In this document: piece after piece, positions 8,234-30,318 of the stretch
Layout of the letters: every line of letters starts with the position of its first letter
Numbering within the stretch: position 1 is the stretch's first letter
Assembly: GCA_018902385.1 (NCBI GenBank)
Contig: JABSSW010000018.1
Coordinates: 682,001-746,000 of the forward strand
Direction: 5' to 3'
Source of the DNA: Physcia stellaris
Lineage: Eukaryota > Ascomycota > Lecanoromycetes > Caliciales > Physciaceae
Length of the DNA stretch: 64,000 nt
Made by a program: the position numbers and the translations under genes
Notes under the pieces: generated by a model
Told to the model about the DNA's origin: nothing
What the model saw: the letters and a program-made list of their open reading frames with translations, nothing else
Database searches by the model: none

Positions 8234-8269
8234 CCCCTCCGCATCCAATTAGTGAAATTTAGCGTGTTT
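8234..8269 (+). repeat. Left terminal inverted repeat
   Basis: Thirty-six bases beginning CCCCTCCGCATCC and ending TAGCGTGTTT. They keep CC, CT and AG dinucleotides that are almost absent from the interior, so the repeat itself escaped the mutation affecting the island. Confidence 0.85.
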
Positions 8270-10330
8270 ATTTCGTGATTTTTTTTATTTGCAATCATCA
8301 TTATTTCATCAATAATACGTTTATTTTGATCATTGCGACGTCGTTTGAATCGTTTGAATCGAATTTATTACATCATATAAACAACATGTCATTTGTTGAA
8401 TCAACATCTGAATTAATTATCGTGCAAGAAAAAAAAAACACGCGTCGATGCAAACGTTTTCATTTCGAAATCGAAAAAACGACGTTTCATTGTATTGAAA
8501 CAAAAAAAAATCGTTCAAACGTTTGAATTTGATTATACATTTTTTATTACATTTATTTATCGATTATTTCAATTGAATCACGTTTGTATGACGTTTTGAA
8601 AATTCGTTCAATTGTTTTTGTTTTTTTTGCAATCGATATTTGATTTATTGTTTTATCACATCAATCAAACGATTTACATCAAAAAAATTAATTGAAATTC
8701 ACTCGTTATGATGAAATTACGTCAATAAATTGTTATACGCATTTCATGATTCAACATTTTGCAAAAAACGCAACAATTTCATCATTTCGATGTCAAAATT
8801 TTTTACAATTTATCATTCAATCGCAATCGATATCAAATCGTTGAACGTCGTTTGAACATTAAATTTAATCAACAAATGTCATACAACAATGTATCATGAT
8901 TTTGAAAAATCGAAAACGTTTTAAACGTTTTCAAATTTCAATTATATTTGTTTATTCGTTTTGAAAATTATTTTGCAATTGACGAATTCGCAATCGAATT
9001 TCACGATCGTATAAATAACAAATTTCGTTTGTTATACAAATCAACAAAAAAAAATTTGTTTTATACGTTTTGATCAATGATAAAAACATTTTACACGATT
9101 TCATGATGTGAAAATTTCGCGATAATTTCGAATATCACAAAAACGATATCACGATCGATATATTTTCAAAAACGATTCGAAAACGCAAAAAAAACATTAT
9201 CGAAATCACGATTACGACGATTCATTTTGCATTTACGAAAAAAATAATATATATTTTTTGCGAACGAATTACACGCAATTTACGTTATCAACATTTCGTT
9301 TGTTTTATCGACAATTTTTCACGAATTTTCATTTCGTCAGAATTTTTTTGATTTTCAATATCGATATTTGTGACATTGTACGAAACAACGCATTTGATAT
9401 ATCATTGAAATTGAAAAAAATAATTGTTGCAAACAAATCACAATTGAATTTAAAACAATAAATACATCGAATTGTGAACGAATTGATCAATTGTTTCGTT
9501 TGAAAAAATTTCGAACGTGATCACGTAATTTCATTTGTTATTATTGCATATATTTCACAAACAAACGAACAAATATCACGAAAAATTCGATTTACGATCG
9601 ATATTTTTTTTCGAAACGATTTCAATAAAATCGTCGTCAAACAATTTATTATTGCAATACAATACAATTTTTATATGAATTATGTGAATCGTGCAAATCA
9701 ATTTCGAAATGAATTGACGATATTACGATTCGAACAATTCAAATGAACGAAACGAATAATCGAATATATGATGAATTCGATCAATACGAATGCATATATC
9801 GTTTGAAATCATTATCAATCACAAACGAATTTTGATTATCGAAATCGACGTGTATTTATTCAAAAATTGATTGATAAATTTTTACGAAATTCAAATATCA
9901 TACATCAATCGTCAAAATGTGTCAAATCGATTTATTGTGTGTGAAATGATTGTTCGATCAATTTTCACATCAAATTTCGAAAACGTTAAACATTTATTTT
10001 TAAAAATGTCAACATACAACATTGTTCGATTCGTAAAACGTTTGATTATTGTATAACATGTAAAACGAATTTATGCGTGTTACATGAATGTTTCAAAAAT
10101 TATCATGATTTGAAAAAATGATCATACGAATGCTTTGATCAATAAAAAGATTTGAAAACGTTTCGAGACGTTTGAAAATGATTTAGTGATTTCAAACGAA
10201 TTTCGAATGTAATCATATTTCAATTATTGTATGTTTATATATTATCGAATTTTTTCACTGAATTATACACATATACACGTAAATTTGATGAAATAATGAT
10301 GATTGAAGTGGGAGAGAAAAGATCGCGTGA

Positions 10331-10366
10331 AAACACGCTAAATTTCACTAATTGGATGCGAAGGGG
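10331..10366 (-). repeat. Right terminal inverted repeat
   Basis: Reverse complement begins CCCCTTCGCATCC and ends TAGCGTGTTT, differing from the left repeat at one base (T for C at position 6). The inner flank from about 10300 (GTGGGAGAGAAAAG) is also unmutated. Confidence 0.85.
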
Positions 10367-10368
10367 AT

Positions 10369-11115
10369 CGCTAGCTCTATTTATATTCGCGCTGCACATT
10401 CCGAAGGGCGGGGCTGAGGCGAAACGCGCCGAAGCAGGGGGTCAAAGCTCAGCTGGAGTTTGAAGGCATTGTTTGAAACAATAAGACGTCTGTGTCCCAC
10501 CACAATGCATCAATGCCACTCACACCATCATGTGGGAGGATCCCGAATATACAATGTGAGCCAAACGCTATTATTGTACGTCCACGAGCGTGCACATCAG
10601 GACTCAAAGTGATCAACGAGCCTTCTTGAATGACCAAATGCACAGTTGATGGGTAGGATTTCGAAATCTAATAACGCGATTTACTAGCTTGCAGCTCAAT
10701 TTCTGCAGAATGTTTTTGAGAAGAGGATCGTAAAAAGCTTTAAGCCATTATTGCTTGGGCTCTTTGATTTCAAATGATGGTCGCGAGTTGCTCGTGAACG
10801 AAAAGGCTCACCCAAGGCCGCACTATTCATAGATGCACTTACTGCATCAAAGATGAATGCGCTGCAACTCAAGGCGTGCGTGCATGCTGAAGGGCTCTTG
10901 CAGTCAGTTCCTTAACCAATTGTAATTCCATTCGATCCCGACTCATGCACGATTGTCGCCTTCGTCTTACCTGGGGCTTGGAGGCAAGTGTAGCAGACTG
11001 TGAACACTGACTGCCGACGGAATTTGCAAGACGACAAGGCTGAACGACGAGTATATAAAGTGATGGTTCTCCACGCCTCTTCATGTTCACTCATCGAACC
11101 TTGTCGTAATCAAAG
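10369..11115. other. Intergenic with promoter of the GPI-type gene
   Basis: Normal base composition returns at once after the island. No gene seen. Its right end holds the promoter of the gene at 11116. Confidence 0.5.
11051..11060 (+). promoter_or_regulatory. TATA box of the GPI-type surface protein gene
   Basis: GTATATAAAG lies 56 bp before the ATG at 11116, a plausible core promoter position with a short leader. Confidence 0.55.
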
Positions 11116-12095
11116 ATGTACGCTCTTCTAGCACGCCTGCTGTTCCTCACTCTGTTTCTTAACAGCCTTGTCGATGCAAGGCTATCCCCAAAAGCAATCC
11201 GTGCAATCCGTCATGAAATCCTAGTACAACGTGACGTTAGCACTCTTGGTCCACAACAGGGACCAAGAAGGTATCTGTAAGTCCCCTGATCCTGTCTCCA
11301 GAATTCCAAGCATTGGCTGACAATCCTAGAACGCTACTTCGAGGCCTACTGCGATCCAAGAATTTCCTAGACTACGCAAGCCGAATACCCTGCAATATCA
11401 TCCAAACCCTCGAGAACGATGCGGAGGAAGCGGAGAAATTTGTCACCCAAATACAGCAAGGCAAGGTTCCGGACCTTATCACTGACCTCCCTGACGAGGT
11501 AATCGGAACGTTCAGCGACGTGATCAACATTGCCGTGACTCTTCCAACGGCATTACTTGGTGCCGCCCAATCCGTCGTCACGGATGCCGCCAAACTCTTT
11601 AACGATATCGAAGATGGCACCATCACCGACGATCTTGCCTCAGTTCCAGGGATAGTCGTCTCAGATGTCACCGCAGGTTGGGCTGGCTTCACGAGCGGCT
11701 TGGTTGACGCCTGGGACCATGCTACTGAGGGTATTGGTTGTTTCTTCGGTGACTGCCCTACACCTACCGCTCCAGCTGGAGACTCCTGCGCGGCAGCAAC
11801 GTCCTCAGCTAGCACTCTCACCAGGACCATTGTTCTTACGACCGCAGCCCCAATTCCGCAAAGCAGTCCCACCACCCCTACATCGACACTTAGATCAGAG
11901 CTGCCAGGTCAAAGTGTGCCAACAGAGCATGTTCCAACACCAACAACCACTATCCCGGCTTTGAACACAACTACCTATACTATCGGTTCTCCTACGGCTC
12001 AACCTTTCCCTGGCAACGCGGTTCCCTTGAACAAGGTTCCGATATTCACTTCCGCAGTCTTCTGCTTGCTCATGGTCATATTCTTAATGTTGTGA
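11116..12095 (+). CDS. Secreted, probably GPI-anchored surface protein
   Basis: Two exons, 11116-11276 and 11330-12095 (53-nt phase-2 intron), 308 residues. The N-terminus (MYALLARLLFLTLFLNSLVD followed by A) is a signal peptide. The middle ~150 residues are hydrophobic and alanine-rich helices (ITVALPTALLGA-type) with a Cys pair near CFFGDC. Then comes a Ser/Thr/Pro-rich, probably O-glycosylated stalk (TTPTSTLRS, PTPTTTIPA), and a C-terminal hydrophobic tail (SAVFCLLMVIFLML) without basic stop-transfer residues, as in GPI signals. Such proteins sit at the plasma membrane or cell wall. No named domain recognised; function unknown. A TATA box lies at 11051. Confidence 0.82.
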
Positions 12096-13359
12096 GCTAG
12101 ATTGGGGGTGACGTGTTCGAGAATAATCTGCAGTTTGTTGTTGCGTTCTGACATTTGTTCAATGTATGGCTTAGCGAGTCTAATTTTGAAACTCGCCACT
12201 TCTCGCGTCCTGATCTATGTGGATTATTGCAAACCAGAACAGCTGTTTTCTAGAGGCGAGGGTCGCATCAAGAGGTATAGTCAGTATTTCAGATGGAGTT
12301 TTAGTAAGAATTGTGTCATGCGGACAGATCAGACGGAGTACTGTGGATACCATTTGCTTTTATTATTTTGATTCTGAATAGCAGACATCGTCTTTCCTTA
12401 TTAATATTGATCCTTCACACGGTATCATTTTGCAGTTCATTCAAAGAGAAATTAAAGGGGCGGGGTCAGCAACAGAGTAAAAAGGGAAGAGAATTTTCGA
12501 GAAAATTGATCGCGAACCCTAGGTAAGATGGTTTGGCTCGAGTGGGTCATAGCCATCAGTTTTAGGGCTCAGAGCGACGTGGCAGGAAAAACTTTGGGAA
12601 AGGTAAGCGCCAGGCACAGATACTCCGTACAGCGTCCTCTCGATGTACTTAGTAGATCAGAGTCCACCAAACCTTCCCATGCTATCAATGGCTCCGCTAC
12701 ATTTGCGTCAATGTGAGAGACTGGACATTCTCAGGCTATCCATTCAATGAATGATGGCTTTGATGTGCACGAATTGCTAAAGAAACAGTCCGCCTGGTCA
12801 AAAGTTCTTTTCCTCGACACTATTGGCCTTCAATCACTGTTTGCGGCACTACGACCCTGGAAGAGCACATTTGGGCCCCTAAATTTTAAACAGTGTTTGC
12901 CACCGACATGTCGACTTCTCTACTGGGTCTGGAAGCTTATATGCCAGGCCTGTCTTAACCAAAGATCAGTGATCAGCATTCGACAGCCAAGCATCAGTAT
13001 GTTCTCTTCGTAGCCATCACCAGAGAACGTTATGAGATTGTCAGGGTCTTCTTAAACCAAGAGCTCTGGTAAGAATCTACTAAGCCGAAAGCAAGGCGCT
13101 GATAGCTGCTTCACGGCATGCCCCAACCACGATAGTGAAACAGCCGATTACTTTCTTGGACTGTTAGGGAACGGCTCTAGATGTAGCGTGTCCGACTGGA
13201 GTGCCGGATGTGATCTCTTTGGTTGTCAAAGAAGATTGCTCGGACAGCACAGTCGTACATGTGCGCCTTTACAGACCGCTTGAGGGAAGCGAGACTGTGA
13301 GTGAAAATTGTTGCAATTGGAAGCTGACGAAGAAAGAAGAGGCCATCTGCTAAACCGCT
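12096..13359. other. Intergenic or decayed coding DNA
   Basis: Short open frames (for example from 12528 and 12747) have no recognisable family. They may be the decayed 5' portion of the ankyrin-repeat relic that follows, but no motif proves this. Confidence 0.3.
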
Positions 13360-14095
13360 TCTACACGGCTAGTGAACTTGCTCAGAGAAGGAGCTGGAGT
13401 AAACGCTCAATAGGGCTATTACGGCAGCACCGTCAAGGCGAGTTGAAAATTAAAACGCAATAACGGTACTCTTCAAATACCAGTAGCAGGAGCAAGTGTG
13501 TTAATTCAAACTCCACGGACTGTGTTGACCACTTAGGCGAGAATATTGAAGATGTCACTGCTCTACAGGTTGCTATTGAGAGATACTCTGCTGCTACTGT
13601 CAAAGCACTTTTGGTCGCTGGGCCTGATGTGAAAACGGCAACTAAAATGGAAAAATGGCACTGCACTGCGATCCTGAAAGCTATCAGTCGTCTCAGATAT
13701 CGAGATTGTGATCTTGAGCTTGCCAAACTCAGTAGATCACGATTTTATTCCAAAAAAGCTTCGGACTCCATTCACCCGAATGAGGTCCTCTGGCATGCAG
13801 AGGCTGACGTTCCTTCCTTCGGAGCGTAATCAGTACACCTGAAAGGACTGCATTGCATCACGCTACAGGTTCCGGCAATGCTGAGACTGTTCGATTGCTA
13901 ATAAAGGCAGGTGCAAAAGCCTACGTTAAGAAGCAACTTGGACAAAATGTCTTACAAGAGACACTTAGTCGGGAAGATTTTGGCGAAGAGGTGTGGGCTG
14001 TGCTCCTCGAGAGGAAAAGACGAGAGTATCGCCTGAGACAGGGGCCAGTATTTCAACAATTGATATTGCAGCTCACTTTGAGGCTAGAGATCTAA
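13360..14095 (+). pseudogene. Ankyrin-repeat gene relic
   Basis: Separate pieces of ankyrin repeat are readable in several frames. VNLLREGAGVNAQ is followed by a stop and then GYYGSTVKAS at about 13370-13440; DVTALQVAIERYSAATVKAL lies at about 13551-13612; TALHHATGSGNAETVRLLIK then AGAKAY at about 13847-13924. The order suits the C-terminal ankyrin array of a fungal STAND/NACHT or HET-type protein, in which NAQGGYYG repeats are frequent (family knowledge). At least one in-frame stop and two frame changes separate the pieces, so it is not functional as read. An open frame at 14178-14541 may be a further remnant but has no recognised motif. Confidence 0.65.
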
Positions 14096-14926
14096 TCCAA
14101 TAGAGGTTAAATTCGAGTCTCTTGCGGGTCTCCTGATTTCTTACCCCCAATTTCAAACAGACACGAGATGAGATAAGATGTCTCGAAGCTGCACGGGCTA
14201 ATACCACGCTTTGGGTTCGCTACCTCGGTGTACGGCATCTGGTAGTGCCCAATGCAAGGAGTCGCTCATGTGGACCCCGGTGTAACAGTCTCTGTGAGTC
14301 TGCACTGATCAAAGCTCATCAGGCTGTGCGACGAGCAGTAATCAAACGAGATTCTCTCATCATGGCGATTTTCCGCAGGGAATCTCTCCGGCATCAGAAC
14401 CAAGAAGTGGACCTTCAGCTTTATAAAGACCCACTTGGTCTACAGTCGTTCAATTTTGTTTATCATTGTCTCCAAAATCTCAAAGATACCTGTTACTCGT
14501 TGTTCAAGGCTTCCACAGTTCCCCTTCACACTCATGACTAGACTTGCCCGGATGCGTGATGGGCCCTTAAAAATTACCGATCCTTTGCTGCGGACCTTTT
14601 CAGCCTTCAACTTTCTGGTTGGGGGCTGCTGGAAAAGGTGTGCAACCAAGTCAACATACTAGCCCGTTATGTTCCGCAAAGGATTGCCCATCGAGTATAC
14701 TCTTGCTGAGAAAGCTTCAAACATATTCAGCCACCAAATCGCGACATTACTTTGATGACGTCTCAATGAAGCCCGGCGGTTGGATATCACTCTGGACATT
14801 ATCCCTGGCCTGCTATCGGGCTGCTCTAGGCGAAGGCGGTGTATCTGCCGAGCGAGGAAACTGTCTTGATAGTGGGAACTTTCCAGAATCCTTCCATTCA
14901 CTGCGAGCAACAACTCCCAACAACAA
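14096..14926. other. Intergenic
   Basis: Apart from the open frame at 14178-14541, which may continue the ankyrin relic, nothing recognisable is seen before the 3' end of the DUF1275 gene. Confidence 0.35.
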
Positions 14927-15925
14927 TTACGGATCTATCTTCTTTGGCCACACCACCCACGCCAAGACCACCGCGAACTTCAATACCCCAGCAACCCACA
15001 AGGCCCAGTGGATCTCCCCCGTTTCTGTAACCAGCCATCCACCGGCCACAGCACCGACTAAGATACCAAAGAACGCCAACAACCTTCGATTTCTTGGAAC
15101 ATTACCCGGAAGGCCAACCCATAGCTTAGGATCGCTCACTAGATCACACAACAGACTAGTGACAACCACACTAGGTATCTCACTCAAGCTCAGCGCACGG
15201 CTGGCGACAATCTGACCCGCCGACTGAAAGCTTAGGATAGCTATAGGCAATGCCTGAAGCCAGTCGATGTCGGAGGAAATGTCTGCGATGGTTCCCTCGA
15301 TCCCGGGAGATGGGGCCTTTCCCTGGGTAAGCCCGGCTGCAGTGAAGATGATGATGGTTTGCAGCAGGAAAGAGGTTATGAGGGTGCCGCGACGGCGAGG
15401 CGTCATGATGCGGTGCAAGCGAGAAAAAAAGAATGAGCCTATCACGAAGCACAGGACGGAAACGAGTGATTTGGCCCAGCCGTATGGTTTGTTGGTTGTG
15501 TGGCCTGTGGAACCGCCAAGACCGATGAAAATGGTGTTCCCTGTCTGCATGGACACGAAGGTGCCGTAGGCTGTTTTCGACGAATTAGTCCGATAACGGA
15601 GCAAACGAAGGGTCTGATGACCCCGTCATCAGACTTGCTACTGACCAAAGTAGATCGTGCTATCGATGAATCCAGAGATCAGACAGCACACGAGCATTAA
15701 GGCATCGACTCGGTTCGTAGAGACGTCGGCGCTCAAGTAGCGCTGTATTTGAGCGGTACGTTGCTTCTTGGGCGGAATCTCGAACGCTGAAGCTCGCTGT
15801 GTCGGTAGAGGTACAGGAGGTCCTTGCTCGATGTCCTTTACCGCTCTTGGCAGACCAGCTGAACTGTCCGATGCTGTTCCTTCATCCGCAACCTTTTCGC
15901 CAAGGAATTCGTTGTCTGAAGCCAT
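14927..15925 (-). CDS. DUF1275 (YoaK-type) membrane protein
   Basis: Two exons, 15925-15646 and 15570-14927 (75-nt intron), 307 residues. After an ~80-residue hydrophilic N-terminus come about six hydrophobic segments: ALMLVCCLISGFIDSTIYF, then the family signature SMQTGNTIFIGLG, ALPIAILSFQSAGQIVASRA, and paired C-terminal helices (FFGILVGAVAGGWL, LWVAGVLKFAVVLAWVVW). The layout F(I/V)DS... (F/M)QTGN is diagnostic for DUF1275, a widespread multi-pass membrane family of unknown substrate. The Met at 15925 (MASDNEFL) is preferred over an in-frame Met farther upstream because the latter adds a non-family extension. Probably plasma or organelle membrane. Confidence 0.88.
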
Positions 15926-17950
15926 GCCGAGAGTGATCCTGAGTGAGTCTGGAAAACAAAGCTGACTTGAACAATGGCAGAGAGATTGTGAAATAGATGA
16001 AAGTCTGCTCGAATAGCCAAAGCTGCGAGGAGCGGTGGCAGATGATCGCGTGTGATGTTTGTGAGATCTTCGTCGCACACTATGGGGCGGTGAGGAGGGT
16101 TCATGCACGTCAGAAAGATGCTCAAGTCATGATGCGTCGATCGCGCGATCTCGATATTACTTTCATGTGGGATGTCGAAGCTGACGAGTTCATCTGGACG
16201 AGCCTAGCCGAGGATGAGATGTTCAAAGCGAAAATCCAAATGGGACAGCTCGTAACGAGAAGATGAAGATGAAGCTGCAAATAGACGACGCACGTTCATG
16301 TACTTGTAACAAGGAACTACGAGTCTACGAAGCGTTCGGTGACACGACAGAAGAGGAGGTCATGGGCAAATGGAGAGATAAGGATGCAAAATGAGAGAAT
16401 CTCATCTCTTGGCGTCATCCAATCTCGGTAACCAATCGGACGAGATGCACCGGCTTTGGAGAGATCGGAATCCTTGGCGCCGAGCCGAACCTAGTTGCCG
16501 CGAACAGCTTGCAATTAGGAAAGAGCGACCGTTGCAAGCCTTCAACGCTCCCCTTCCATTGGCTGTACGTCTGTCTTCAATCGAATACGGTCACTTCTTA
16601 AGAAAGACTTGAGGTTAGATGATGACTTGACCCCCGACAGTCTTCCGCTTCGTCTCCATACCTGTAGCAAAGCCCAATGGCCTCTTGCGAGTCTATGCTT
16701 CAACTGTACATCGGAACAGTGGCTTTCCAAGTTGCGTCAGTGGTTTACGAGCTGCCTTAATCTGTCATGCTACACCGGAGGATACGATGCAGGGCCGATC
16801 TAGCGCCGGCACTTTCATTCGAAGGGTGTACTAGTAACGTTGAGAGGCTAAAGTACTTGGCCTCCACAACAAGCGACTTGGCAATTAGAGGCCGAAATTC
16901 GGATGTGCATCAGCCTACCAGGACTTCACATATAACCCGCGAATCGCCAAGCCTGGTGCTGATGCTGAATAGCTTCAGGGACTGCGGTTAGTGTTGACGA
17001 CAACAATCATTAGGCGTGGACGATGTGGTGGAGTGATTGAGTACCTTGGGAATTGATAGAAAGACGACTACCCGTCATCGTGGCGGTGAAAGTAGATCTG
17101 GTGCGATCGCCGTCAGCAGAAGCCGCCAAGCTGCAGATAAGCTTACATCTCACTGCGAACGCCAAGAAGATGAAGGCGCATTGATCTCAATTAATCCCAT
17201 GACTTGCTCGGGGGCCAAAATGGGTCTTCACTCGAGCACGTCGTCGCGAGCATGGACGTATCTGGATCGACAGAGCCTCTTCTCACTGACGGTCTAGGCC
17301 TGTCATCTCTACGAGCTGCTCACCGCGATGCTACCTGTCTGGAATGGAAACATCTCCGCCCGACCGCCGTCCTATCAAAGATGCAGGGGAATCCACAATG
17401 AACCCATCTTTACCCCAAGTCGATCTTCATCCATGCACGTCATGCTCTCTTCATGTTCATGGATGCGAACGCGAGATCTACTGACTACCGGCATACCCAT
17501 AACCCTCCATCATCTACGTCTCTGTAATTGATTTTTCAGCATCAAATAATATGACAGAATCTTTCCATCTGCTGCCACCATCGCGAACCTCTTGTGTCCG
17601 CATTTTTCCGATCTCACGCTTTCTTCGCACACCCTAACGTTGCATTCAAGGCTAAGCCATCATCCACGAAAGAAGAACTGTTGCGCCATTCAATCTAAAT
17701 CCATCAGAAAGTGTGACAACCTTTGACTAGACAGTCAGCTCGATGGCTTCATCAGATGACCTTCTGCGAGCTCGAGCGAGGCACTCGGATGAACTTTCTT
17801 CAAATCGTCTTGATGGGGATCTTAGTGAAGGAGGGCCATCAACCGCAGTACTTAAGCCTCCAGTTTCTGCTCTACAAAAGGACTGGAACTGTTCGATAGC
17901 AATTTTACAAGCCGTCCTAATACCTAAAAACCTATCTTGATCACCGAAGT
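15926..17950. other. Intergenic
   Basis: No recognisable gene. A 65-codon frame at 17743-17940 (MASSDDLLRARARHSDELSS) lies just before the next gene but no splice sites link it convincingly. Confidence 0.4.
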
Positions 17951-19512
17951 ATGGTCCTCCCAATGACGGTAGTAATCACGGCAAGCACAGACAAGAACCA
18001 GAACAGTGTCATCACTGTAAAGGACCAACATGGCCAACGGACGATCGACCTTCCAACTCCGGGCAGCGAAGCGGATCCTTCTGCTGAACAGCGTGAGGAG
18101 CAGCTGATCAATGGCCATCTTACTTCGCCAGGTCCCATGGTTGTTAATGCCGACATCGAAGCTCCCGAGAGGCTAGCTACCTTGGTCAAACATGAGGACA
18201 AGCCATCCGCACTAGCACACCATGAAGCCAAGCTATCTACACCAGTGCAGGAGCAGCTGATCAATGACCATCTCACTTCGCCGGGTCCCATGGTTGTCAG
18301 CGCCGATATCGAAGACCCCGAGACGCCAGCTAACTTTGTTAAACATGAGGATAAGCTATCCGCACCAGTGCAAGAGAAGGACAAGCCATCCGCACTACCA
18401 CACGATGAAGCCAAGCTATCCACACCAGTGCAGGAGCAGGATGAAACCCCTGCACTCGTTCCTATGAGAGTGGATACTGATGATTCCCTTCTGCCTCCAT
18501 CCACAAGGCTACAACGCTATTTGAAGGAGACGGACGAACTCATCGTTTGCCCAGGCGTCTATGACGGGTTCTCTGCCCGGATTGCGATTTCTGTGGGATA
18601 CAAAGCAATGTACATGGTACGCTGTGTCTATAATCCTTCTCAACTTAGAAATGAGCACTGACCTTGATGCAGACAGGCGCTGGCACCACTGCCTCACGAC
18701 TTGGACAGGCCGATCTGGGCATCGCCCAGCTCCACGATATGCGCGAACATGCCGAAATGATTGCCAACCTTGATCCCAGAAAGACAACATTGATTGCAGA
18801 CATGGATACAGGCTATGGTGGTGAGTCTTCCTCACTCTTCTTCCATTTCTCGTCTTGATAAGCTGTGTACCCTGATACGTAAGGTCTAGGTCCTTTGGTT
18901 GTCACCAATGCCGTAAACCAGTATATCCGAGCGGGTGTAGCAGGGTTTCACCTCGAGGACCAAGTTCAAAACAAGCGCTGTGGCCACCTCCAGGGCAAGG
19001 AAGTCGTCGACCTTCAGACTTACCTCCAGCGCATCCGAGCCGCCAAAGCCGCCAAAGACGCAGCCCGCTCAGACATCGTGCTCATCGCTCGCACGGATGC
19101 AAATCAGAAGCTGGGCTACGACGAGTGTATATGGCGTCTCAAAGCTGCCAGAGATGTCGGCGCCGATGTCGGCCTCCTCGAAGGGTTCAAGACGAAAGAA
19201 GAAGCAAAGCAGGCAGTCATTGACCTCGCTCCGTGGCCTTTACTTCTCAACGTCGTAGAAAATGGGACCAGTCCGCGGATTACTGTGGCTGAGGCCAAGG
19301 AAATGGGATTCCGCATTATGATTTTCTCCCTGGCCGCTCTGGCGCCTGCCTACACCGCCATCAGAGATGCCTTCGAGACGTTGAAGAACGAGGGCGTGAC
19401 TAAGACAGACAAGGCATTGACCCCAAAGGTCTTATTCAATGTTTGCGGTTTGCAAGATGCCATGCTGATTGATGCTAATTCCGGGAGCTCGGCTTTTGCT
19501 GGTGGAGTGTGA
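17951..19512 (+). CDS. Isocitrate lyase/PEP mutase superfamily enzyme with duplicated N-terminal extension
   Basis: Three exons, 17951-18616, 18673-18820 and 18890-19512 (introns 56 and 69 nt), 478 residues. The C-terminal ~290 residues form the TIM-barrel enzyme: GVYDGFSARIA, TGAGTTASRLGQADLG, the metal-binding DMDTGYGG, GFHLEDQ, and KRCGH. K[KR]CGH is the lyase signature whose Cys acts in C-C cleavage, favouring a lyase of 2-methylisocitrate or similar acids over a phosphomutase (inference). The N-terminal ~180 residues are not part of the fold. They contain a ~50-residue unit repeated in tandem (QLIN-HLTSPGPMVV-ADIE-PE-VKHED) and acidic/Pro-rich linkers. The start at 17951 keeps this extension; a start nearer the barrel is conceivable. 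Confidence 0.85.
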
Positions 19513-21511
19513 AGGGGGTTAAGCGTGCGGTTAGACCTGCTGGGTCAAATTGATTTGTCCATGGAACACTTTGCTCCTACATAACCATGTCTTGTCATAC
19601 TTTCTTGCCCTAGAACGTGTTTGGTAATAGTTTATGCTCGTTAATAGTTACACAGAATGAACATCTCCTACCGTGGCGCCATCTTTCTTCCACATTCCTC
19701 GGTACGATTCTTTAGCCACCTGACAAATCGAGAGGCAGTCTTGATCCCTGTTAATGATAGACTCCAGATGCTTACTAGACTTTGCCCTAGTCATTCACTT
19801 GGAACTTATAACAGGTAGGCAGTAGAGAGCCTTCTGCCCTGCGCCCCACGCCGCGCCCCCCACAGATCTATATGAGGTCTCACACAGACATTATTACCTC
19901 GGCTGAGATAAGTACAGGCGTTCCTCAATTGCACGTGTGATAGTGATCAAACCTTGCGGAGAAACGCGCGAGCACAGGACTCTGGAATGACATGGACATG
20001 GTTCATTAGATCTTTGGTTTTTTTGGCGACGTGCAGCACTCGATCCGTGGTGAACGAATAGAGAACCATGCTTATTCATCTTAACAGGCTTTCCCATACG
20101 TATTTGCCTAGCAGGACACGGGTCTGACAGGTATTAAAAATGAGGAATGTTAAAGACGGGCTCTCTTCGTCCAGTGTGGCCGTTACAAGTTTCCGCTTCG
20201 AGATCGCATCGTCCGCTCAACTTTTGCCGACTGCCTCTCCAGGATTCATCTAACGCGGCTAGACAGAACCGTCATCAGTAGTCCCATCATTCCCCGCTTG
20301 GCTTTCACTTTACAGAGGACTCCTAAATAGTCGGCAACACTCGAGAAAGAAGTTTTGTCTGGCCTTGGTCGTTGACATGCTTCGTAGCCTTGCAAGTCTC
20401 CGCTGTCCTAGTCACATCCTAAATCGGACTCGGTGAGCGTAGGACCGTCAGCAAGCGAATCAAATTTGCGTCTGGAAAGAGTTGTGCAAGCCAAGAGAAA
20501 GCATGTCTTGTCTATCTGGGTAAGTCGGAGCCCTTCCTCATACTCTTGAGCTCTTGAGCCTACCAGCTTATTTTAGTGATACTGCCAGTCTTCTCCAGTG
20601 CGCCTCGAAGCCGTACCCGTACCGCGTTTCCTACCGTATGTACCGATTTCCATGAGAGGCGGTATGCCTAATAATGCGATGGGCTTTAGAACGGAATGCA
20701 TCTACCTTTGTCATGATGGGTTTCCTATCCTCGATACTACAGCAAACTCAGAATTCTCTCAGACTCGATCCACGATGTTCAAGCCTCCTAAGGATGCACA
20801 TTGCCGAACATCTCCTACATCTGCAGTGTCCGCTATCAGCCGTAAAGTCGTCTAATCTAAACCAATGAGATTAGAGGTTGGCGGAATCGTCGATCGACCG
20901 TGCCGCACACCAGCTTTGCAATGCACTGCCAGCCTTGGCACTCTAGGATATCGGTAGTCTCAGCCTTGCAGAACTCGAAGTCCGAGAAACATCTCGAGCT
21001 CGCTACAGATGACCAACAGCCTTGAAACATGTGTGATTCGGAGAACCTCACGCTTTGTTCCACGCTAAGTCACGCCATTTGAACATTGCTGTGCCGTGAA
21101 TCGCTTCAACACGTTTGGCCATCCAATGGATCACTCTTCCGAAGCAGCATCCCCAGAACGAGAGGGGCAAAATCTGCAAGGCTGAACCTGCGCAGCACTG
21201 ATCGACCGAGTCGACGATCTAGACAGGCCTCAAGTGCGGCTCTGGAAAAGAGCACTTAGCCTGATAGCGACACCGAAATGTATCCCGCCGCTATTTTTCT
21301 CGATCTATGCGTCCTATGGGAGGAGTAGGACAGAGTGTGGGGGAAATGCGGGTAGAGTATTATCAGTGGAGCAGGGTGTGAAAGATGGTTCTATGTCCGG
21401 GACACACTTCAGCTTCAGCCTCATCAATGTTTGAGGGATTAATAGTGGGGATGGACGGGACTTTTCATTCTCAGGTCTTCGATCTCGCTGGTGATTGTAT
21501 TAACAACCAGT
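19513..21511. other. Intergenic
   Basis: About 2 kb of normal composition without recognisable genes, RNAs or repeats. Short frames lack family features. Confidence 0.45.
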
Positions 21512-23560
21512 ATGAAGCTTGCAGTGGGCGTGTCCCTTCCAGCCGTTGGCGTACTTCTTTTCATTACCCTCCTACACAATGTGGCTAGAGCTCACAGTAT
21601 GGATGTGCGCAAAGCTCTGAATGAGCGTAGCGTGTCTGCCCCAGGGCGTGAGCTGAAAGCTTCGTCATTGAGAAAATCTCTAGCCAAACGACATACTGAG
21701 TTCCGGTTGACCAACGAAGTGACCCTGAATTACGCGGAAGGTTAAAGCGCCTTGCATATGGGACTGAGTGAGTTGGCTAACCTCTACTAGGAGAGACTTT
21801 CGAGTCTGAACGCAACTTTGCAGCTTACATACATGCAAAGTCGAGCACGCCAGTCTTACTTCTCGAAGACTACGAACATCTGACAGACTATATTGACTGC
21901 CGTCCTGGCGAAATATATTTGCACCTCCTTCCTGGGCTAGAGCTTCCGGCTTCCAAGACGACCTTACTGAAGCTGAAAGGAGGAACAGTCATAACATCTC
22001 ACTATGGTTGCAACGAGCATGGCGAGCGGGCTGTCTTCAGGTTCGCTAAATCAAGCCTTTGAACCTCTGCTTCTATACTGATCAGTGACAGAATTTGGGA
22101 CGTGCAGATATCCGAAGACGGATCTTCAATTACACTTTCTTCCGAGCAGACCTCATGGGAACAAGCCTTCGGCTCTATCAAAGTCAGCTTGGACCATACT
22201 ATTGAAGGGCACATCCATCGTCCTCACTCCAATCTTCACCGTCGACAATCGGCACTCGCATCCTCAAGCGTCGTCTCACTACCATCCGAGACCGTCACAG
22301 TACCAACCGCAACATCCACTGCCACCGTGAATACTCTGGACGTAAACCATGCACTGGTTGATCAAGATCTTCTACCAGCAAACTCGTCTCTACAAATCAC
22401 TTGTACGAATTGTTCCACCTACGGAAGCTTAGATTTCTCTTTCGTCAACTTCGAGTTCGCCCCAGATCTGGATGAAACCATTCAAGGAGGGTTCATTCTT
22501 GGTGATATATTCAACGGTGGTGAAGCAACAGTTGTCGCTAATGGTCTTGGCGCTCATGTTGAGCTGTACTTGAATATCTCCGAATCGAAAATTCTCGCGA
22601 TACCACTGTTTGAGATACCACTGCTGTTCGCTATCAAGGTAGTCTAAGTTGCAATCAACGATGGCAGAGCACTGACGACCCATTCAGATTGGTGGTATCG
22701 GCTCAGTCGGATTGCTGTATGCACCAACTCTGCACATCGGCTACAACCTTGACAATGGTTCCCTGTGAGTGTAGAGTATTGCAAGAAGCAAAGCGGCGCT
22801 AATCTTTGCCACCAGCGGTTTCGGCTATGGCTTCGAGCTCTCAGTAAGCTCCACCAACCTCAGCACGAAATCTTCAGACACTGACCCCTAGCTTCAGGTT
22901 CCCGACCAATCCCGCCTCTTCATTGACCTGACCGACCCCACAAACTCCACCGTCACTGGCTTCGGCGACTCTGACGTCTCACAACTCCCGTTCCAAGCCA
23001 AGGTTGACGTCGACACCGTCCAGCTAAGTGTAGCGCTACGCCATCGTGTACAGATAGGCTTCAACTTCGACGCTGGGGGCATTGGAACTAATGTTGGAGT
23101 ATACCTCGATCTCCCTGGTCTCGAGGCCAATGTCACTCACCTGTCGGACGTGGACGAGAACTGCGCAAGTCTAGCTTCTAGCCAATCTACGGATAAGGCT
23201 GTCGCACAGCAAGTGTTGACCGATGTCTATGAGATCGCGCCGTCGGTGTTGTGGGGGGTCGGCTTTGATGGGGACGCTCATGTGAGTAGAATGATTGTCT
23301 GGATTGGGCTTTGCTGATGCTTTTCTTGCAAGGTCGGGCTCGTTCATGATAAATTCGATATCCCCATCGCGAATGGGACTATCGCTGACATCCCCTCGGA
23401 ATGTCTGAATTTTGATGCCAAGGCTGGCACGTATGAGCCTGCGGCGGAAGTCGTCGCAAAGGCTAAGAAAGGCTCTAAAGGTGGAGCTGGACAGCTTTGG
23501 ATCCCTGGCGCTGCGTATTGGGTGGCCCTCGTTTGCGGAATGGTTGTGCTGTTCTTTTGA
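21512..23560 (+). CDS. Secreted, probably GPI-anchored protein of fungal DUF7029/DUF7223-like type
   Basis: Seven exons: 21512-21740, 21791-22040, 22092-22638, 22688-22764, 22816-22843, 22898-23281 and 23333-23560. All introns are 49-54 nt, and the spliced frame is open for 580 residues. It begins with a signal peptide (MKLAVGVSLPAVGVLLFITL). One lumenal module is built around LELPASKTTLLKLKGGTVIT with a short Cys-bearing loop, followed by ISEDGSSITLSS. A second long beta-rich module has LQITCTNCSTYGSLDFSF, GIGSVGLLYAPTLHIGYN and a Gly-rich strand pattern. It ends in a hydrophobic tail (AAYWVALVCGMVVLFF) suited to a GPI signal. The layout resembles fungal DUF7029 plus DUF7223 proteins (from memory, not searched). 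Function unknown; likely surface or wall. Confidence 0.8.
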
Positions 23561-23829
23561 TCCTAGTATGGGCCTGTTGGGGAGTAAGCTGGAAATGAAA
23601 ACGTCATCTAGACTTTGAAAAGGTGTGGCATGTAACGACAGGGATATTTCTTTCGAGAACTTCCCTCCTTTCCACAATCCTAAAGAAACCAGAAATCGAC
23701 TGAAAGAGAACAGTAGCTTTGTTGAGCCGTAGGCTATGAGAACTCTTCCCTTGCCGCAACAACTAGATAGAAATCAATAAAACTTTTTACTCATGATCTC
23801 ACTTAGAGTGGCTTCAATTCTGCTCGTAG

Positions 23830-25387
23830 CTAACCCTCCGCATGCTCACTATGTAGCCTCCAATCTCTTGCAACGCCGATGCCACTCTCGGGCGCATTCC
23901 CGCCTGGTCCCCTCCCCACTTGAGCATGTGAGCTCGTCGTTTTGGTCCTCGGATCCAAGCCTGCGAGCGCAGCTTCCTGGCTCCCAGGCATCCCAGCCGG
24001 ATCTCTTGACTCAACCACTGCGCTATGAGGCAGGGGACACGACAAATCCTCCATGTCATACCACTGCCTCCCCTCCTCGAGACGAGAGTGCTTCGAGCGC
24101 AGAGATTTGTTGCTGTTGAGTTGGGTGTGCGAGGATCCGTTCTCGTGACCGTGGATTCCGTGGGTTCGAGGAGTGGGCGTCGATCTTGTGGGCACGCCGG
24201 TGGCTCGCTCCATGCGGGATCGGTTCAGGGCGAGAGTTGGGAGGAGAAGTACACGAAGCCGTGGTGCAGCAGGGGTTGCATGGTTACGAAGCAGGGACAG
24301 AGGATTCCGAGGTCCATTTCGGCGTGCGTCCACCATTGGATTGGCGCGAGGGCGTCTGCAGAATACTTTGTCAGTACTTCGTATTGTCGTGCTGATATAC
24401 AACTGTTTTTATAAGGGTATGATGACCGCTTGAATTGATCTTGGGGCGAAAAGGCTAGATGTGATGAGAAGGCTTAGGCTTACAATTCGGATCCATAGTG
24501 TTATACTGGTAGTATAAAGAAAGGCGGAATATGCTGGCTATGAGTGTAAGGCAGCCCAGGCAAAAAATCAGGCCCAGTCCAATCTTTCGCCATCGTGACA
24601 TTCGTAAGTTCCAGATGGCGGCCAGCGGAAGAAAGAGCAGAATGGCATCCGTTGCAATGTTGAACCCAGTATTGGCCAGGTACAGAGCTTTAAGGTCAAT
24701 GGAATGCGTTCGCTTGACGTTGAGGTCCCAACTTGATTCAATGGGCCAGAACTGGCAAATGTCTGCGACAAATGACCCGATAGCGTAGCCGGTGTAGCAG
24801 AAGACTAGGAACCAACATGTTCCTCTAATCCATGGCTGTAAAAAGATACGGTGGTAAAGCAGGGCCAGGGAAACGCGCGCGATTGGGTAGGAGGTGGTGT
24901 ACATGAGGTTCCAGGCGTACCATTGCTACAAATTCCATTTAACATGCGCGTCACTGCTTGACAGGGACTTGGCGAGAAACGCTTACCTTGCCTCCCAACG
25001 CGAAATCCGCCTTTGTAAGAGTAGACTGGTGGTAGCACCAATGCGCGTTGAAAATGTTGCTCATGGCCATTGACTGGGCGCCAATCGTCAATACCTAGAC
25101 ACGTCATGTCAGTGAACATCCAATGCGCGTATCTCAGCCGCGGCAGAGGGCTAATCCGCGGATCAAATCTAATGAGATCTTACCAACGCGAGGAGCAGAA
25201 GATAGTCATCACTCTTCAAGTTGATCCTTGCCAGCTTCCTCGACCAGAAACGTAGACATACTGCGAAAGTGATGATGACTATGCCGGTGATGGTGAAGGC
25301 ATTCAAACCCGAACAAGAGAACTCGGTCGGGTGAGCCAGTTCATAGTCCCGCTGCCTCTGCTGGGCTGGGGTAAGCTCTTCTGCCAT
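23830..25387 (-). CDS. Rhodopsin-domain (Pth11/SAT4-like) integral membrane protein
   Basis: Five exons: 25387-25184, 25094-24987, 24925-24484, 24391-24255 and 24207-23830. Introns are 89, 61, 92 and 47 nt, and the spliced frame is open for 422 residues. Seven hydrophobic segments are visible, starting ITGIVIITFAVCLRFWSRKL then DDYLLLLAL. These are followed by the family landmarks YTTSYPIARVSLALLYHRIF, WPIESSWD, ANTGFNIATDAILLFLPLAA, and DALAPIQWWTHAEMDLGILC. The C-terminal ~125 residues are hydrophilic and cytosolic. The family is a fungal-specific GPCR-like group that includes Pth11, linked to surface sensing in pathogens; the ligand here is unknown. The last intron was chosen because it removes a stop and joins two frames at the expected end of helix 7. 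Confidence 0.85.
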
Positions 25388-26308
25388 GGCTGACTTCTTT
25401 CAAGCATGAGCTGTATTTCAGCCATGCATTGCGTCTTTCTTTACCAAAAGAACGCATTGAAAGCAAGAAATTGAGCTCTGGAGGGCAGAGGCTCTCTTCA
25501 GGGCGATTTGGAACGATTTGTTACAGCCAGCAATATTGTGGCTGGACGTTAAGTGCTAGTCTAGTGACATGGCGTTCTCCCAAAGTCCACACTGTCATAG
25601 CTCGGTGGTTCCAACAACCAAGACATCGGGGAAATGTGCGCGAATCGCGGAGTCTGTAAGACTAATTGGAAGACGGGATGGTTCTAACTTCTGCTTCTGC
25701 CAAAAATTGAAGCTATTTTTTGGTCCGTTGTACGATTGTCGTAGGTGGCTTGGCTCTAAGACTCTAGGACAGATTAGTGAGGGGTAGTAGCCAATCACCA
25801 AGCGTCGCTTATAGACTCACTTAGTCCCGGCTTGATGAAAGATCTCTCGGAGTCTCCCTCGCCTCCATCCGCCTCCAGTCCCTTCCCATTACCTCCCCAC
25901 ATCGCAACTCCCAATTCCATGACTCGTTGCAGCACTACTCGCAGCGAGGATGACAAGTCTTGATCGGAATCCAAACTGGAAGACGTTTCTGGGTCCTTAA
26001 AATCTCCACTCGGGGCCCAATCCGGATTCTTTCTCGTGACAATGTCCCATATGGACTGCAGACTGTGCAGAGGCTTCAACTGTCATAGCATACCGGACTG
26101 TCATGGTGTGTCGATCCTGCGCCCAAATCCTGAAAACCAACAGTTGCAGAGACACAGCGCAAAGAACATGTTATTTCAGGAAGAAACGATGGCAGAAAAT
26201 TTCTAGATGCAGGAGCCGAGAAGTTGAAAGAAGCCACTCTCTGCAAAATGTTTTACTTCTTCCGTGGACAGAAACTAATATGCGCTCATGTGCCATACTG
26301 TTTTTCTC
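25388..26308. other. Intergenic
   Basis: No recognisable gene. A minus-strand open stretch (25795-26079) is preceded by an acceptor-like sequence but has no ATG and no family features. Confidence 0.35.
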
Positions 26309-27268
26309 CTATTTTTTCTCTTCGGGCGGTGTCGCAATCTTTGACACCCTGTTCAGCTTGAAAAAGGTACCTTTGGCTATTTCGTGCATGCCCACAGCCA
26401 TGGTGAATTCCATTTCTAGGAACCTGCGTTCTGCGAAGAAAACTCTTTTAGCGATCAATAGCAGTCCTTCACGTAATACTTCATTAGTCAACATCGGCGC
26501 TTTGGACGGCCCTTCACTCGTACTGTGTACATTGATGACACAGTCTGCTGCGGACCCAACTCCGTATACATATGAACGGTATGCGTTCGGCCTCTCTGTG
26601 GCGGTACTGATCATCGCGTCCAGAATTGCGGTGAAGACTTCTGGAGCTGGTATAGTGAGGCCGTCAAGATCCCATTGAATAGTCAGTTGACCAAACCTTG
26701 GATTCGGATCCACGACCTTGCCGGTGTCTCGAATTCCTAGGCTACGAGGGGACCTGCCCACGATTGCGGTATGACTGCTATTCATCGACTGATGCATGGA
26801 AATCGTGGATCTGAGGTTATCGGTGATGCGGACTATTCCAACGAGCTGTCCATAATATTCGAGCCCCACTGTAAGCTCCTGATATTTGTTTCTTTCAGTC
26901 ATGGCCACTATTCCGTGATAAAGACCAAGGAGAACATGGCCTAGCCTGAGTGGAGCTGACGATCCTCCTGATGCCATGTCCATGAACATGATACCTACTC
27001 CCAACCTTCTGTTCATGGCACCGCCATCGCCAGTCACGATAGAGTCCCATTCGTCATCACAGAAATTCGCCATGGCCTCGATCGCCATCAGATGTACAAC
27101 CACCGGGTTCAGCCTAGCAAAGCCAAATTGGAGGTCTGCTGTGAATCCCGCAGGATCTCGGGGAGCACCATACCCTGGGAGGGTTGGAATCGTGGAAGCG
27201 ACAGATATATGGACGAAGAAGACTAGATAGGTAAACCATTGTCGCATCGTGTCCATGGCTGTTATCAA
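26309..27268 (-). CDS. Secreted orphan protein (family A, two-unit form)
   Basis: Single exon, up to 319 residues. The mature start is preceded by a signal peptide best read from MRQWFTYLVFFVHISVAS (start 27247), so the two upstream Mets may not be used. After PTLPGYGAPRDP two similarly built segments follow. The first includes LRLGHVLLGLYHGIVAM and LTVGLEYYGQLVGIVRI; the second includes LTIQWDLDGL, VFTAILDAM, ADCVINVHS and EVLREGLLLIAKRVFFAERR. The same pattern recurs at 35481 and 37800, suggesting a local family. No Cys-rich pattern, enzyme motif or GPI signal. Secreted, function unknown; effector-like by context only. Confidence 0.7.
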   Translation of the reverse strand: MITAMDTMRQWFTYLVFFVHISVASTIPTLPGYGAPRDPAGFTADLQFGFARLNPVVVHLMAIEAMANFCDDEWDSIVTGDGGAMNRRLGVGIMFMDMASGGSSAPLRLGHVLLGLYHGIVAMTERNKYQELTVGLEYYGQLVGIVRITDNLRSTISMHQSMNSSHTAIVGRSPRSLGIRDTGKVVDPNPRFGQLTIQWDLDGLTIPAPEVFTAILDAMISTATERPNAYRSYVYGVGSAADCVINVHSTSEGPSKAPMLTNEVLREGLLLIAKRVFFAERRFLEMEFTMAVGMHEIAKGTFFKLNRVSKIATPPEEKK

Positions 27269-28759
27269 AGATTAGTTACTAGTTACAGAAACACTCGTCC
27301 CTGCCAACATTGAGTGCCGAATCACGACTCTCAAGGGAAATTTCCTGGGGGATCGTATGATGTGCACAGAGATGCACTGCCTAGTGTGGAATGAAACAAG
27401 CCCACAGCTGGGCTCTTATAGGATTTCTAATTTTGGCTCTGGACACGTGAATGGGAAAGACGGGAAAGTAGTATTGCAGTGAAGTAATCTGCTGGGCATC
27501 TCGTTGAAGCAGAGGCGAGTGCAGAAATGCAAAGATCTTATCAAAGTGAGAAAAGAGGTGCTGGCTTAGTGCTTACAACGTTGTCAGCGCATATCGCCAA
27601 ACTCGATCGCTGACAAGGCGGTGTGAAGCCCGAGTGAAGCGCAGGATTCAAAGGATCCATAATGCAAAAAGTGTACGGAAGACTTATCGGCAGGATTTTG
27701 CGCTGCCGCGGCGTTCGCAGATCATAGGTACCACGACTAATTGTCTGGACCAACACATCGGCGAATGGGCTTCTTCTCTCAATAAATCCGGGTATAGCTT
27801 CCGTACAAATTCGAAAACAACACCGCTTCACCATTTGGTTTTTGGGGTCATCCATGCTTTTGACCTATCTAGTCTGGTTAATGGGATTTCAGGCAGGTCT
27901 TCCTCATCACGAACTGCTTCGTCGACCTCACTCGGTCCGCTGAGTGCGTTGCCAACTCATCGGCCCCCGCATGATCGTTCATGATATCTCCATCCTTGAT
28001 CAGTGCAAGTCTTTGTACTCCGTATGCACCAGAATATCCTTAGATCGTTTCTTCACGATTGACAAAGATGATTACCGGTTCGTATACTCTTGGCTGCAAA
28101 ATCATCAAAAACATATTCGAGGTTTCCGCCGAGCCTCCACATATTTGGTCACCATTAGGATTGCCATCTCACAAAAACAAAGGTCAAGCTCGGCTCGCGC
28201 ACGTGATCCTGCTTATCCGCATGTCGTAGGACAATTAAAACCATAACTCTTCAGTGTGACGAGGAGATTGATCTATCAGGGTCTGTGCCTGTTCATAATT
28301 TTGAGATACCAAAACAAAAGCGTTAATATGTGACAAGCATGCAGTATCATCAAAGCATTACAGACAAGAGAGAATGTATCTATGAGTGTGTATGCTAACA
28401 ATGAGATCTCAGGCCCTAATATGATTTCATATATGGGGAAGCCGGTTGGTACAGAGAGAAGTATCTTGAACAATGTTCTCAGTTCATCGCTTATACCACC
28501 TTCGCAGCGTTATCAGTTTGAGGTTCCTTCCCTCACGAGTCACATACGTATGCTCAAACAGAGCAAGAGGTCATGCCAATTTTACACAACAATTCTACAG
28601 TCTTAATGGATCAGTCAAGCGATCTGACTACGACCATAACAACCAAAAGTACCTGGTATATTTCATACATAAAGTATGTGTTCTCCCCACAACATCCATC
28701 AACACATCTCCATCATCCCACCCTATGCACTCACTACCAAAGCAAAAAAAATATTAAAC
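27269..28759. other. Intergenic
   Basis: No recognisable gene or repeat across 1.5 kb; short frames on both strands lack family features. Confidence 0.4.
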
Positions 28760-29236
28760 ATGCCTGCAAGCAACGCCCCTCGACTACAGCCTCGCGACTC
28801 CTGCTCTCACCCTCTCACCTCTGCCGAAATAACCTCCGGCAACCTCTGCACGCCGATGAAAACATGCATCCACTGCCAAGCCTGGTTCCAGATCTTCCTC
28901 CCCATCCTGATCATCGTGATCCTACTGCTCAGCTGCTGCTGTGTCAAAGCTATGCGCCCGAAGCATGGCAACAAGAGCAGTTTCTTCGCTAACTGGTTCG
29001 GGTCGCGTGGATTCGATAAGCCCGCTAGGATTGAGAGGAATGAGTTCGTTGGGGGAGGGAGGAGGGGAGGGAGTGGACAAAATGAAAGCCCACCCGCGGA
29101 TAGGGATGTGGAGCTAGGGACAATGCAGCTGCCGCAAACGCCGAGTCCGAGAGGCGGAGGTGGAGGACGAGTGGGAGGAGGGCAGCCGGCTGTGGTCCGG
29201 GGAGAAAGAAGAGAGGGCAATCATTGGGGGAATTAG
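28760..29236 (+). CDS. Small single-pass membrane protein
   Basis: The start at MPASNAPRLQPRD (28760) is preferred because upstream codons translate an A/T-rich leader. 158 residues. A short N-terminal region with Cys residues (CTPMKTCIHC) leads into one membrane segment (IFLPILIIVILLLSCCCVKA), then a basic stretch (KAMRPKHGNK) and a Gly/Arg-rich disordered tail (GGGRRGGSG, RGGGGGRVGGG). The CCC after the helix could be palmitoylated (inference). The pattern of short lumenal Cys region, helix and long basic tail is common in fungal orphan proteins. Function unknown. Confidence 0.55.
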   Translation: MPASNAPRLQPRDSCSHPLTSAEITSGNLCTPMKTCIHCQAWFQIFLPILIIVILLLSCCCVKAMRPKHGNKSSFFANWFGSRGFDKPARIERNEFVGGGRRGGSGQNESPPADRDVELGTMQLPQTPSPRGGGGGRVGGGQPAVVRGERREGNHWGN

Positions 29237-29624
29237 GTATGCCCTGAGATAAAGTCTTTGGACAGACACCGGTTTATATGTACAGTCGTGAGACGGTGAC
29301 AGTAGGAGCTATATGAACACCAATATGAGATTTAGGTCCCAATATTCTGCATAGAACTTCCAGGCACTTTGTTTAATGGATAAAGCTCTGTGGTAGATGA
29401 TGTAGGACCTTCAGAAGAATGGTTCACACCGTGGCTAAAACCTTCATAGACATGGACGTCACTGCGACGAATATCACGCAGAAGCGGACGTGGATCGGTT
29501 GTGTCTGGTTTTTGATGCCATCGTGGTGGTAAGTTTAGCGCACTTCCATACATACATTTACTCTTTAACAAAACCCCACCCGCAAATCAAAATGTGTCCA
29601 GGTACACAGAGACCCCTGTGAATC
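29237..29624. other. Intergenic
   Basis: Convergent 3' regions of two genes; nothing else seen. Confidence 0.5.
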
Positions 29625-30318
29625 CTACTTAACGATTTTTCTAGGTTCCATAGAATGTAGGTCGCCCGGACGTTTGATGCACATATCCTTCGATTGAACA
29701 GTGATATTGTGTTCAACAACCTTATGTGGATCTTCATTATTGTAACAATCTTCTGTAGTATACCAGATAAAGTTGAGACCTCTACTGTCCGGATGTATCA
29801 ATATGTGATCCGCCTTGCTCTGTTTCTTCCATACGGTGTAACATGAACGCTCTGCGTAATTTTCCGAGTCAGAAACGCACTTCAGTATCTTTTGCGATAT
29901 GTGGTCGGAACAAGTCGCATGACCATGATTGAAGAAAAACATGGCCTGAGATGTACTTACCGATCTCTAGCTTAATTTGATCTTTAATCCTCCCATTGTT
30001 TGAGGGGTCGCATTGAGCATTGTTGTAAAATTCGACCCAGGGAACGTCATCAGGCGGGTATATGTACGGATCGGAATCACGTGGTTCAAATGTGGAGTTG
30101 ACTTTCGCTGCCGTCGGTACGACCGCGGTAGGAGTAGCTTGCGAAAGCCCACCGAGCGCTGTGGTGCTCTCAGAGCCAGCACTCAGCGGAAACCCGAGAC
30201 TGTTGGTGCTTTCAGGAACAATCGACGAGGTTGAGCTGCTGGCGGGTAGAGCATCGATTCCTTGAAAATAGCTGATGATGCCCAGGAGGACAGCGAGGAG
30301 ATGAGTCGTGGAAGGCAT
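29625..30318 (-). CDS. Small secreted Cys-bearing protein, candidate effector
   Basis: Two exons, 30318-29961 and 29851-29625. The 109-nt intron has donor GTAAGT and branch site CTGAC 14 nt before the acceptor. 194 residues. Signal peptide MPSTTHLLAVLLGIISYFQG, Ser/Thr-rich propeptide-like segment, then a compact domain starting VEFYNNAQCDPSNNG. It contains four Cys (QC, SC, DC, MC) able to form two disulfides and one N-glycosylation site (EHNIT). An alternative acceptor would retain an extra Cys-containing stretch, so Cys number is tied to the splice choice. Size, secretion and Cys content fit fungal small secreted proteins; activity unknown. Confidence 0.65.

Follow-up and report, generated by a model that had tools for sequence, protein, structure and literature searches.

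The best-described relatives of the pattern reported here are the RIP systems of filamentous ascomycetes. In Neurospora crassa cytosines are altered in the order CpA > CpT > CpG > CpC, and in Trichoderma reesei CpA and CpG are about equal, with CpT above CpC (PMC5496416). A screen of 1,239 fungi described CpA preference as common to RIP-like defences (PMC12543289); no class of Lecanoromycetes is mentioned among the 130 strong cases in the text of that article available to us, and the word Physcia does not occur in it, the species list apart. Prominent CpT changes have also been reported: they exceed those at CpA in the N. crassa Tad1 element and are high in some repeats of S. nodorum (PMC2621366), and CpT>TpT changes dominated control alignments in another study (PMC7882544), so that CpT targeting has precedents. 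In the lichen-forming Endocarpon pusillum, repeats show a TA/AT ratio of 1.47 (PMC3897900), and CpA-type indices gave RIP values of 5-9% for Cladonia metacorallifera and Gyalolechia flavorubescens (PMC7882544); in Cladonia rangiformis, GC falls to ~16% (PMC12542154). Outside these systems, RIP-like mutation in Basidiomycota targets CpG or TpCpG (PMC4014442), and in Zymoseptoria tritici a Dim2-dependent, mitotic process converts CpA to TpA (PMC8016269). The lichen-forming ascomycete Physcia stellaris bears apothecia in abundance, and its genome was obtained from an ascospore culture; in the accessible portion of the article concerned (PMC7513301), we found no treatment of RIP in this species.

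The window analysed here is a stretch of 64,000 nucleotides of the P. stellaris genome (contig JABSSW010000018.1, positions 682,001 to 746,000). Its features are as follows, in window positions:

8234..10366, plus strand: piggyBac-type DNA transposon of ~2.13 kb with AT at each flank (genome matches; ends from 12 copies and the window)
8234..8325, unstranded: left terminal inverted repeat of ~95 bases, with CC kept in the outer bases (reverse-strand match and sequence)
about 8283..10300, unstranded: core almost devoid of CpC and CpT on either strand (200-base scan; CC 0 and CT 9 at 8400-10300)
9265..9810, plus strand: transposase DDE stretch, approximate (position inferred from the match in copy L012)
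10273..10366, unstranded: right terminal inverted repeat, with GG kept in the outer bases (genome match and sequence)
11000..57000, unstranded: unique gene-bearing DNA without the bias, the internal control (dinucleotide counts)
57000..64000, unstranded: second AT-rich block, continuing beyond the window, with CpC nearly gone and CpT reduced (scan and dinucleotide counts)
60434..63999, unstranded: second repeat family, with no Pfam match in six frames, of which 10 copies were aligned (genome matches, alignment)

The left terminal inverted repeat was recognized by the reverse-strand match of query positions 1974-2069 to C18:690232-690324. In the genome as searched (44 Mb in 147 contigs), at least 72 stretches match the transposon at 8234-10366, and many of these are fragments or short ends. 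One relative, L012, matches DDE_Tnp_1_7 (piggyBac-type, E 2.8e-10), and a copy on contig C22, with a GC content of 0.454, shares 77% identity with the window copy over almost the full length.

According to the original prediction, cytosines in the AT-rich DNA survive only before a purine, an impression gained from 39 cytosines in two 120-base blocks (8821-8940 and 9181-9300). Our recount was identical (20 CpA, 19 CpG, and no CpC, CpT, ApG or GpG), and the scarcity of TpA, also claimed, was evident in observed/expected ratios of 0.38 and 0.64 in the respective blocks. With both strands counted, positions 8400-10300 contain 250 CA, 0 CC, 226 CG, 9 CT and 258 TA, compared to means of 181, 61.5, 62, 180 and 526, respectively, in 1000 shuffles, none of which gave fewer than 39 CC or 145 CT. 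Relative to unique DNA, the per-base densities in the transposon block are 0.93 for CpA, 1.16 for CpG, 0 for CpC and 0.036 for CpT. In the unique DNA at 11000-57000, the 3' neighbour of C is A in 29%, C in 22%, G in 21% and T in 27% of cases; the same bias in unmutated DNA, which the original prediction had named as evidence against itself, is thus absent there. The purine rule stands, with the refinement that CpC and CpT are depleted unequally, CpC being lost before CpT: at 60001-64000, within the second AT-rich block, a single CpC is left, and the 172 CpT amount to about one third of the unique-DNA density. The TpA/ApT ratio is 0.31-0.62 in the AT-rich blocks of the window. By simple arithmetic, DNA of 48% GC that lost every CpY cytosine would have a GC content of ~24.4%, close to the 25.5% of the transposon block, which indicates that its AT-richness reflects CpY loss and little else.

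The gene-bearing DNA includes a short AT-rich patch at 35090-35180, which is CpY-poor without being CpY-free (17 in 35001-35200) and is perhaps an old short remnant. Elsewhere in this region, a plus-strand frame of 405 aa (32189-33406) matches CotH kinase (E 9.2e-38), and two long minus-strand frames (53008-55778), adjoining the second AT-rich block, match parts of a polyketide synthase (dehydratase, zinc-binding dehydrogenase and an sdrA-like Rossmann domain).

The direction of change was determined with the little-mutated C22 copy as a near-ancestor reference, against which 20 copies, a subset of the 72 matches that includes the window's own copy, were polarised. In sum, C was changed to T at 3211 of 3473 CpC (92.5%) and 2974 of 3742 CpT sites (79.5%), as against 462 of 5530 CpA (8.4%) and 151 of 4295 CpG sites (3.5%), while 19913 A/T sites were the same and 533 changed. 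Alignment by 3' neighbour, as had been proposed, therefore concentrates C>T at CpC and CpT; CpA>TpA, the alternative outcome, is not the main change. The contrast between contexts is cleanest in the copies otherwise least diverged from the reference. In L015, 171 of 193 CpC and 126 of 204 CpT sites were changed (297/397 combined), compared to 3 of 306 CpA, none of 234 CpG and 3 of 1133 A/T sites; the corresponding counts in L024 are 123/141 and 102/145 (225/286 combined), 1/206, 1/178 and 1/793. Change before a purine is thus ~0.5% in these fresh copies. Expressed as -ln(unchanged), the L015 values are ~2.2 for CpC, 0.96 for CpT, 0.01 for CpA and 0 for CpG, a hundredfold difference between CpT and CpA. 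L010 is similar (CpC 186/190, CpT 175/205, CpA 5/306, CpG 3/234). In the old copy L007, 73 of 306 CpA sites carry T, so that CpA too changes, slowly, in old copies and CpY is not the sole target over time.

Where CC precedes a purine, the copies read TC in 530 cells, TT in 37 and unchanged CC in 11 (74 gapped cells were set aside); mutation of the first C with retention of the second is a direct sign of the 3' rule. The 5' base has little effect at CpT, the T fraction being.68-.82 for A, G and T at -1, and among the copies CpA is influenced to some extent by the base at +2. Mutation affects all of the 20 copies and both strands, and by per-strand counts plus- and minus-strand sites are equally affected. 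Changes at CpT are only weakly correlated between copies (phi 0.11-0.41 in the 45 pairs formed by 10 copies chosen out of the 20), as expected of largely independent events with a degree of site preference. For P. stellaris, the one species from which the DNA-level evidence comes, it is near certain that the target order is CpC > CpT >> CpA > CpG and that it is set by the 3' base.

CpY loss stops at or near the repeat borders. In 12 full-length copies, CpY density is 0.00-0.07 per base at 200-1000 bases inside, whereas it is at least 0.18 in the first 50 outside bases of 14 of the 24 flanks; 7 flanks lie within DNA that is itself mutated, and in 3 the change reaches beyond the repeat, by 100 to a few hundred bases. 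Within the transposon, the loss weakens in the 50-200 bases nearest each end, and in several of the 12 copies CpC runs are kept in the outermost 40-100 bases while the interior is stripped, as if the process fades toward the repeat edges. The C:G to T:A transitions are accordingly concentrated in repeats, the unique DNA being unbiased.

The bias recurs across many places and repeat families. In the second family, for which the Pfam search of six frames gave no match, 10 of 30 loci were aligned, and the fraction of C/T differences is.963 for CpC (135 cells),.842 for CpT,.119 for CpA and.060 for CpG. A stretch of rDNA on contig C41 (3' SSU, ITS, 5.8S and 5' LSU) is itself CpY-mutated. The 5.8S search gave a single match (L055, C41 45899-46052), and a common 5.8S primer site was absent from the assembly; functional rDNA thus seems to be missing from it, and the conserved letters of the Rfam models were used as the ancestor. 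At these letters, C>T was found at 27 of 30 CpC, 17 of 33 CpT, none of 27 CpA and none of 38 CpG sites (34 CpG kept, 4 otherwise changed). With all consensus letters, the counts are CpC 113/170, CpT 62/100, CpA 12/96 and CpG 26/138, a contrast that is weaker but in the same direction; non-conserved consensus letters are unsafe ancestors. The counts cover LSU to model position 726 and exclude LSU 454-635, SSU 1348-1490 and SSU 1762-1831. In practical terms, barcode work on the group of P. stellaris could pick up CpY-mutated rDNA copies.

In a genome sample of 20 places of 2 kb, hand-picked at round coordinates, 13 of 80 half-kb windows are below 35% GC, with C preceding A, C, G and T in 766, 11, 756 and 199 cases, respectively. 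The classical RIP indices (TpA/ApT > 0.89 with (CpA+TpG)/(ApC+GpT) < 1.03), whose use on the AT-rich blocks had been suggested, were calculated for 683 index windows, which partly overlap (L005 and L025 lie in the 64,000-nucleotide window, and L003 and L004 overlap). Of these, 381 are below 35% GC, and none of the 381 passes; the four that do are GC-normal. Because CpA is nearly spared, standard RIP tests miss the defence in P. stellaris.

Under the CpY rule, stops should arise chiefly by TGG>TGA and seldom by change of CAA or CAG to TAA or TAG, and CCN and GGN codons should disappear. In L012, none of the 180 codons of the DDE stretch specifies Pro, Gly or Trp; the four stops are all TGA, and 8 CAA and one CAG are left. 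The stops in 137 matches to Copia reverse transcriptase are TGA 401, TAA 101 and TAG 3, and those in 25 piggyBac-type matches are TGA 95, TAA 6 and TAG 0. The 101 TAA are more than the CpY rule can account for by itself and agree with the slow change at CpA. Four of the 137 and two of the 25 matches are stop-free; some Copia elements thus seem to have been spared or to be late arrivals, and most of the remaining Copia matches carry several stops. The effect on genes hence differs from that of CpA-directed RIP: stops are mostly TGA, CAA and CAG codons persist, and Pro, Gly and Trp have vanished from the stretch examined.

As to the enzymes, inspection of the genome for RID- and DIM-2-type cytosine methyltransferases had also been advised. 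A search with the PF00145 profile yielded four stretches, which belong to three genes. One of these is DIM-2-like and two are RID-like, and the catalytic domain is complete in each. L002 has an ENV triad and is, by reading, DIM-2-like. EQT and EET triads mark the Masc1/RID group (PMC6709928), and the RID-type genes expected of RIP are represented by P0001 (L003/L004; 932 aa, EQT) and L001 (~515 aa as spliced by eye, EET). In quick trees of 167 columns, P0001 belongs to an EQT group of 39 rows (support 94) that also contains Usnea, Pseudocyphellaria and Teloschistales rows, and L001 to a 15-row clade (support 99, on a long stem of 0.58) with Heterodermia, also of the Physciaceae. The position of the latter clade is uncertain: placement with the other Lecanoromycete EET group was not rejected (p 0.27), and placement with the EQT group was borderline (p 0.05). 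Before motif IX, L001 and four near relatives, P0125, P0128, P0132 and P0138 (of which the tree includes P0125 and P0128), read LIAxGGGxDNY, in contrast to the (I/V)T(T/C)xGG of many other RIDs; the loose form of the latter pattern, sought anywhere in the protein, occurs in 24 of 237 proteins, many of which are without this part. Against the uniqueness of the L001 stretch, Geopyxis P0201 reads ILAGGG at the same place, and L001 is for this reason a candidate only. On the protein sequences, this divergent RID-like gene may be tentatively favoured as the CpY enzyme, with P0001 and L002 sharing most of the remaining probability. A bolder proposal, somewhat more doubtful, is that a fast-evolved second RID of the Physciaceae, with an altered recognition stretch, acts as a CpY-specific mutator, so that it is the RID protein itself that encodes the 3' specificity of RIP. 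If true, RID would be the direct mutator and its specificity would be open to swap experiments.

Several other explanations were weighed against a repeat-directed process. Classical RIP with CpA as its chief target would account for C>T change in repeats on both strands and for the slow CpA change in old copies, and yet it retains practically no probability and is refuted for this genome by the polarised counts, in which CpA changes (3/306 in L015, 1/206 in L024) stand against 297/397 and 225/286 at CpY; nor is there a rise of TpA, as both the low TpA/ApT of the window's AT-rich blocks and the failure of all 381 AT-rich windows on the index pair attest. Deamination governed by the 5' neighbour, whether by APOBEC-type deaminases or by ultraviolet light at dipyrimidines, whose contexts are set in this manner, would also entail CpC loss. 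It is refuted by the copy-context counts and deserves next to no credence, since in CC before a purine it is the first C that was changed (TC, 530), with no CT class above 3 among those listed, CpT depends on the T at +1 and hardly on the base at -1, and TpC is enriched, not lost. The thought that the blocks were AT-rich by origin, as unmutated foreign DNA, satellite or assembly error, draws on the AT-richness itself and on nothing else; a homologue of GC 0.454 exists from which the other copies depart as the CpY rule prescribes while A/T sites have hardly changed, and the bias is seen at many places and in several families, such that polarised alignment refutes this explanation, which is exceedingly improbable. 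Methyl-CpG deamination would remove CpG first, and the reverse was found: CpG retention, which the original prediction had held against it, is confirmed by C>T at only 151 of 4295 sites and a density 1.16 times that of unique DNA. Methylation without mutation, as in the MIP of Ascobolus, does not describe repeats whose sequence is mutated.

The most serious rival, itself unlikely, is a DIM-2/heterochromatin arm, in which CpC and CpT would be methylated by the DIM-2-like enzyme and then deaminated, perhaps also vegetatively. The gene for such an enzyme exists (L002, with its ENV triad); in N. crassa, DIM-2 is reported to favour CT for methylation, and a vegetative, Dim2-dependent C>T mutator, albeit at CpA, is described from Zymoseptoria (PMC8016269). 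CpC rather than CpT ranks first in P. stellaris, however, and the edges are sharp at the repeat border in 14 of 24 flanks, a feature more readily reconciled with a repeat-homology process than with the spreading of chromatin.

In our assessment, the AT-rich blocks are in all probability repeats damaged by a RIP-like genome defence with the order CpC > CpT >> CpA > CpG. A RIP-like mechanism is very likely; we use the term because the change is confined to repeats, has sharp edges and affects both strands equally, and because the genome carries genes of RID and DIM-2 type. The original prediction of such a process with a different 3' context is supported jointly by the copy alignments, the second family and the rDNA copy, with unique DNA unbiased. 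The process would act before meiosis, as in RIP, an enzyme of the RID/DIM-2 set would carry out the C>T change, and recognition would have shifted from CpA to C before a pyrimidine in the P. stellaris lineage.

CpC-first targeting with near-sparing of CpA was not found in the open-access library searched, among the matches listed, and it is this combination that appears to be new, as published orders place CpA first and CpC last. CpY targeting thereby breaks the claimed shared CpA preference and offers a natural specificity variant for asking whether RID itself selects and alters the base. The other lichen-forming ascomycetes with RIP (Endocarpon, C. metacorallifera and G. flavorubescens, the last two of the same class as P. 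stellaris) were detected by TpA-based indices, unlike the repeats described here; these indices score P. stellaris as RIP-free, and similar fungi may have been overlooked. Like P. stellaris, Z. tritici exhibits C>T change in repeats with a fixed 3' base, linked there to a methyltransferase, but its target is CpA and its setting mitosis. The Basidiomycota share C>T hypermutation away from CpA, although their target, CpG, is the dinucleotide most spared in P. stellaris. In T. reesei the change is likewise repeat-directed C>T, whereas in P. stellaris CpG and CpA are spared instead. The N. crassa system resembles that of P. stellaris in its repeat-directed C>T change on both strands and its RID- and DIM-2-type genes, yet it places CpA first and CpC last, where P. 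stellaris begins with CpC, followed by CpT and, far behind, by CpA and CpG.
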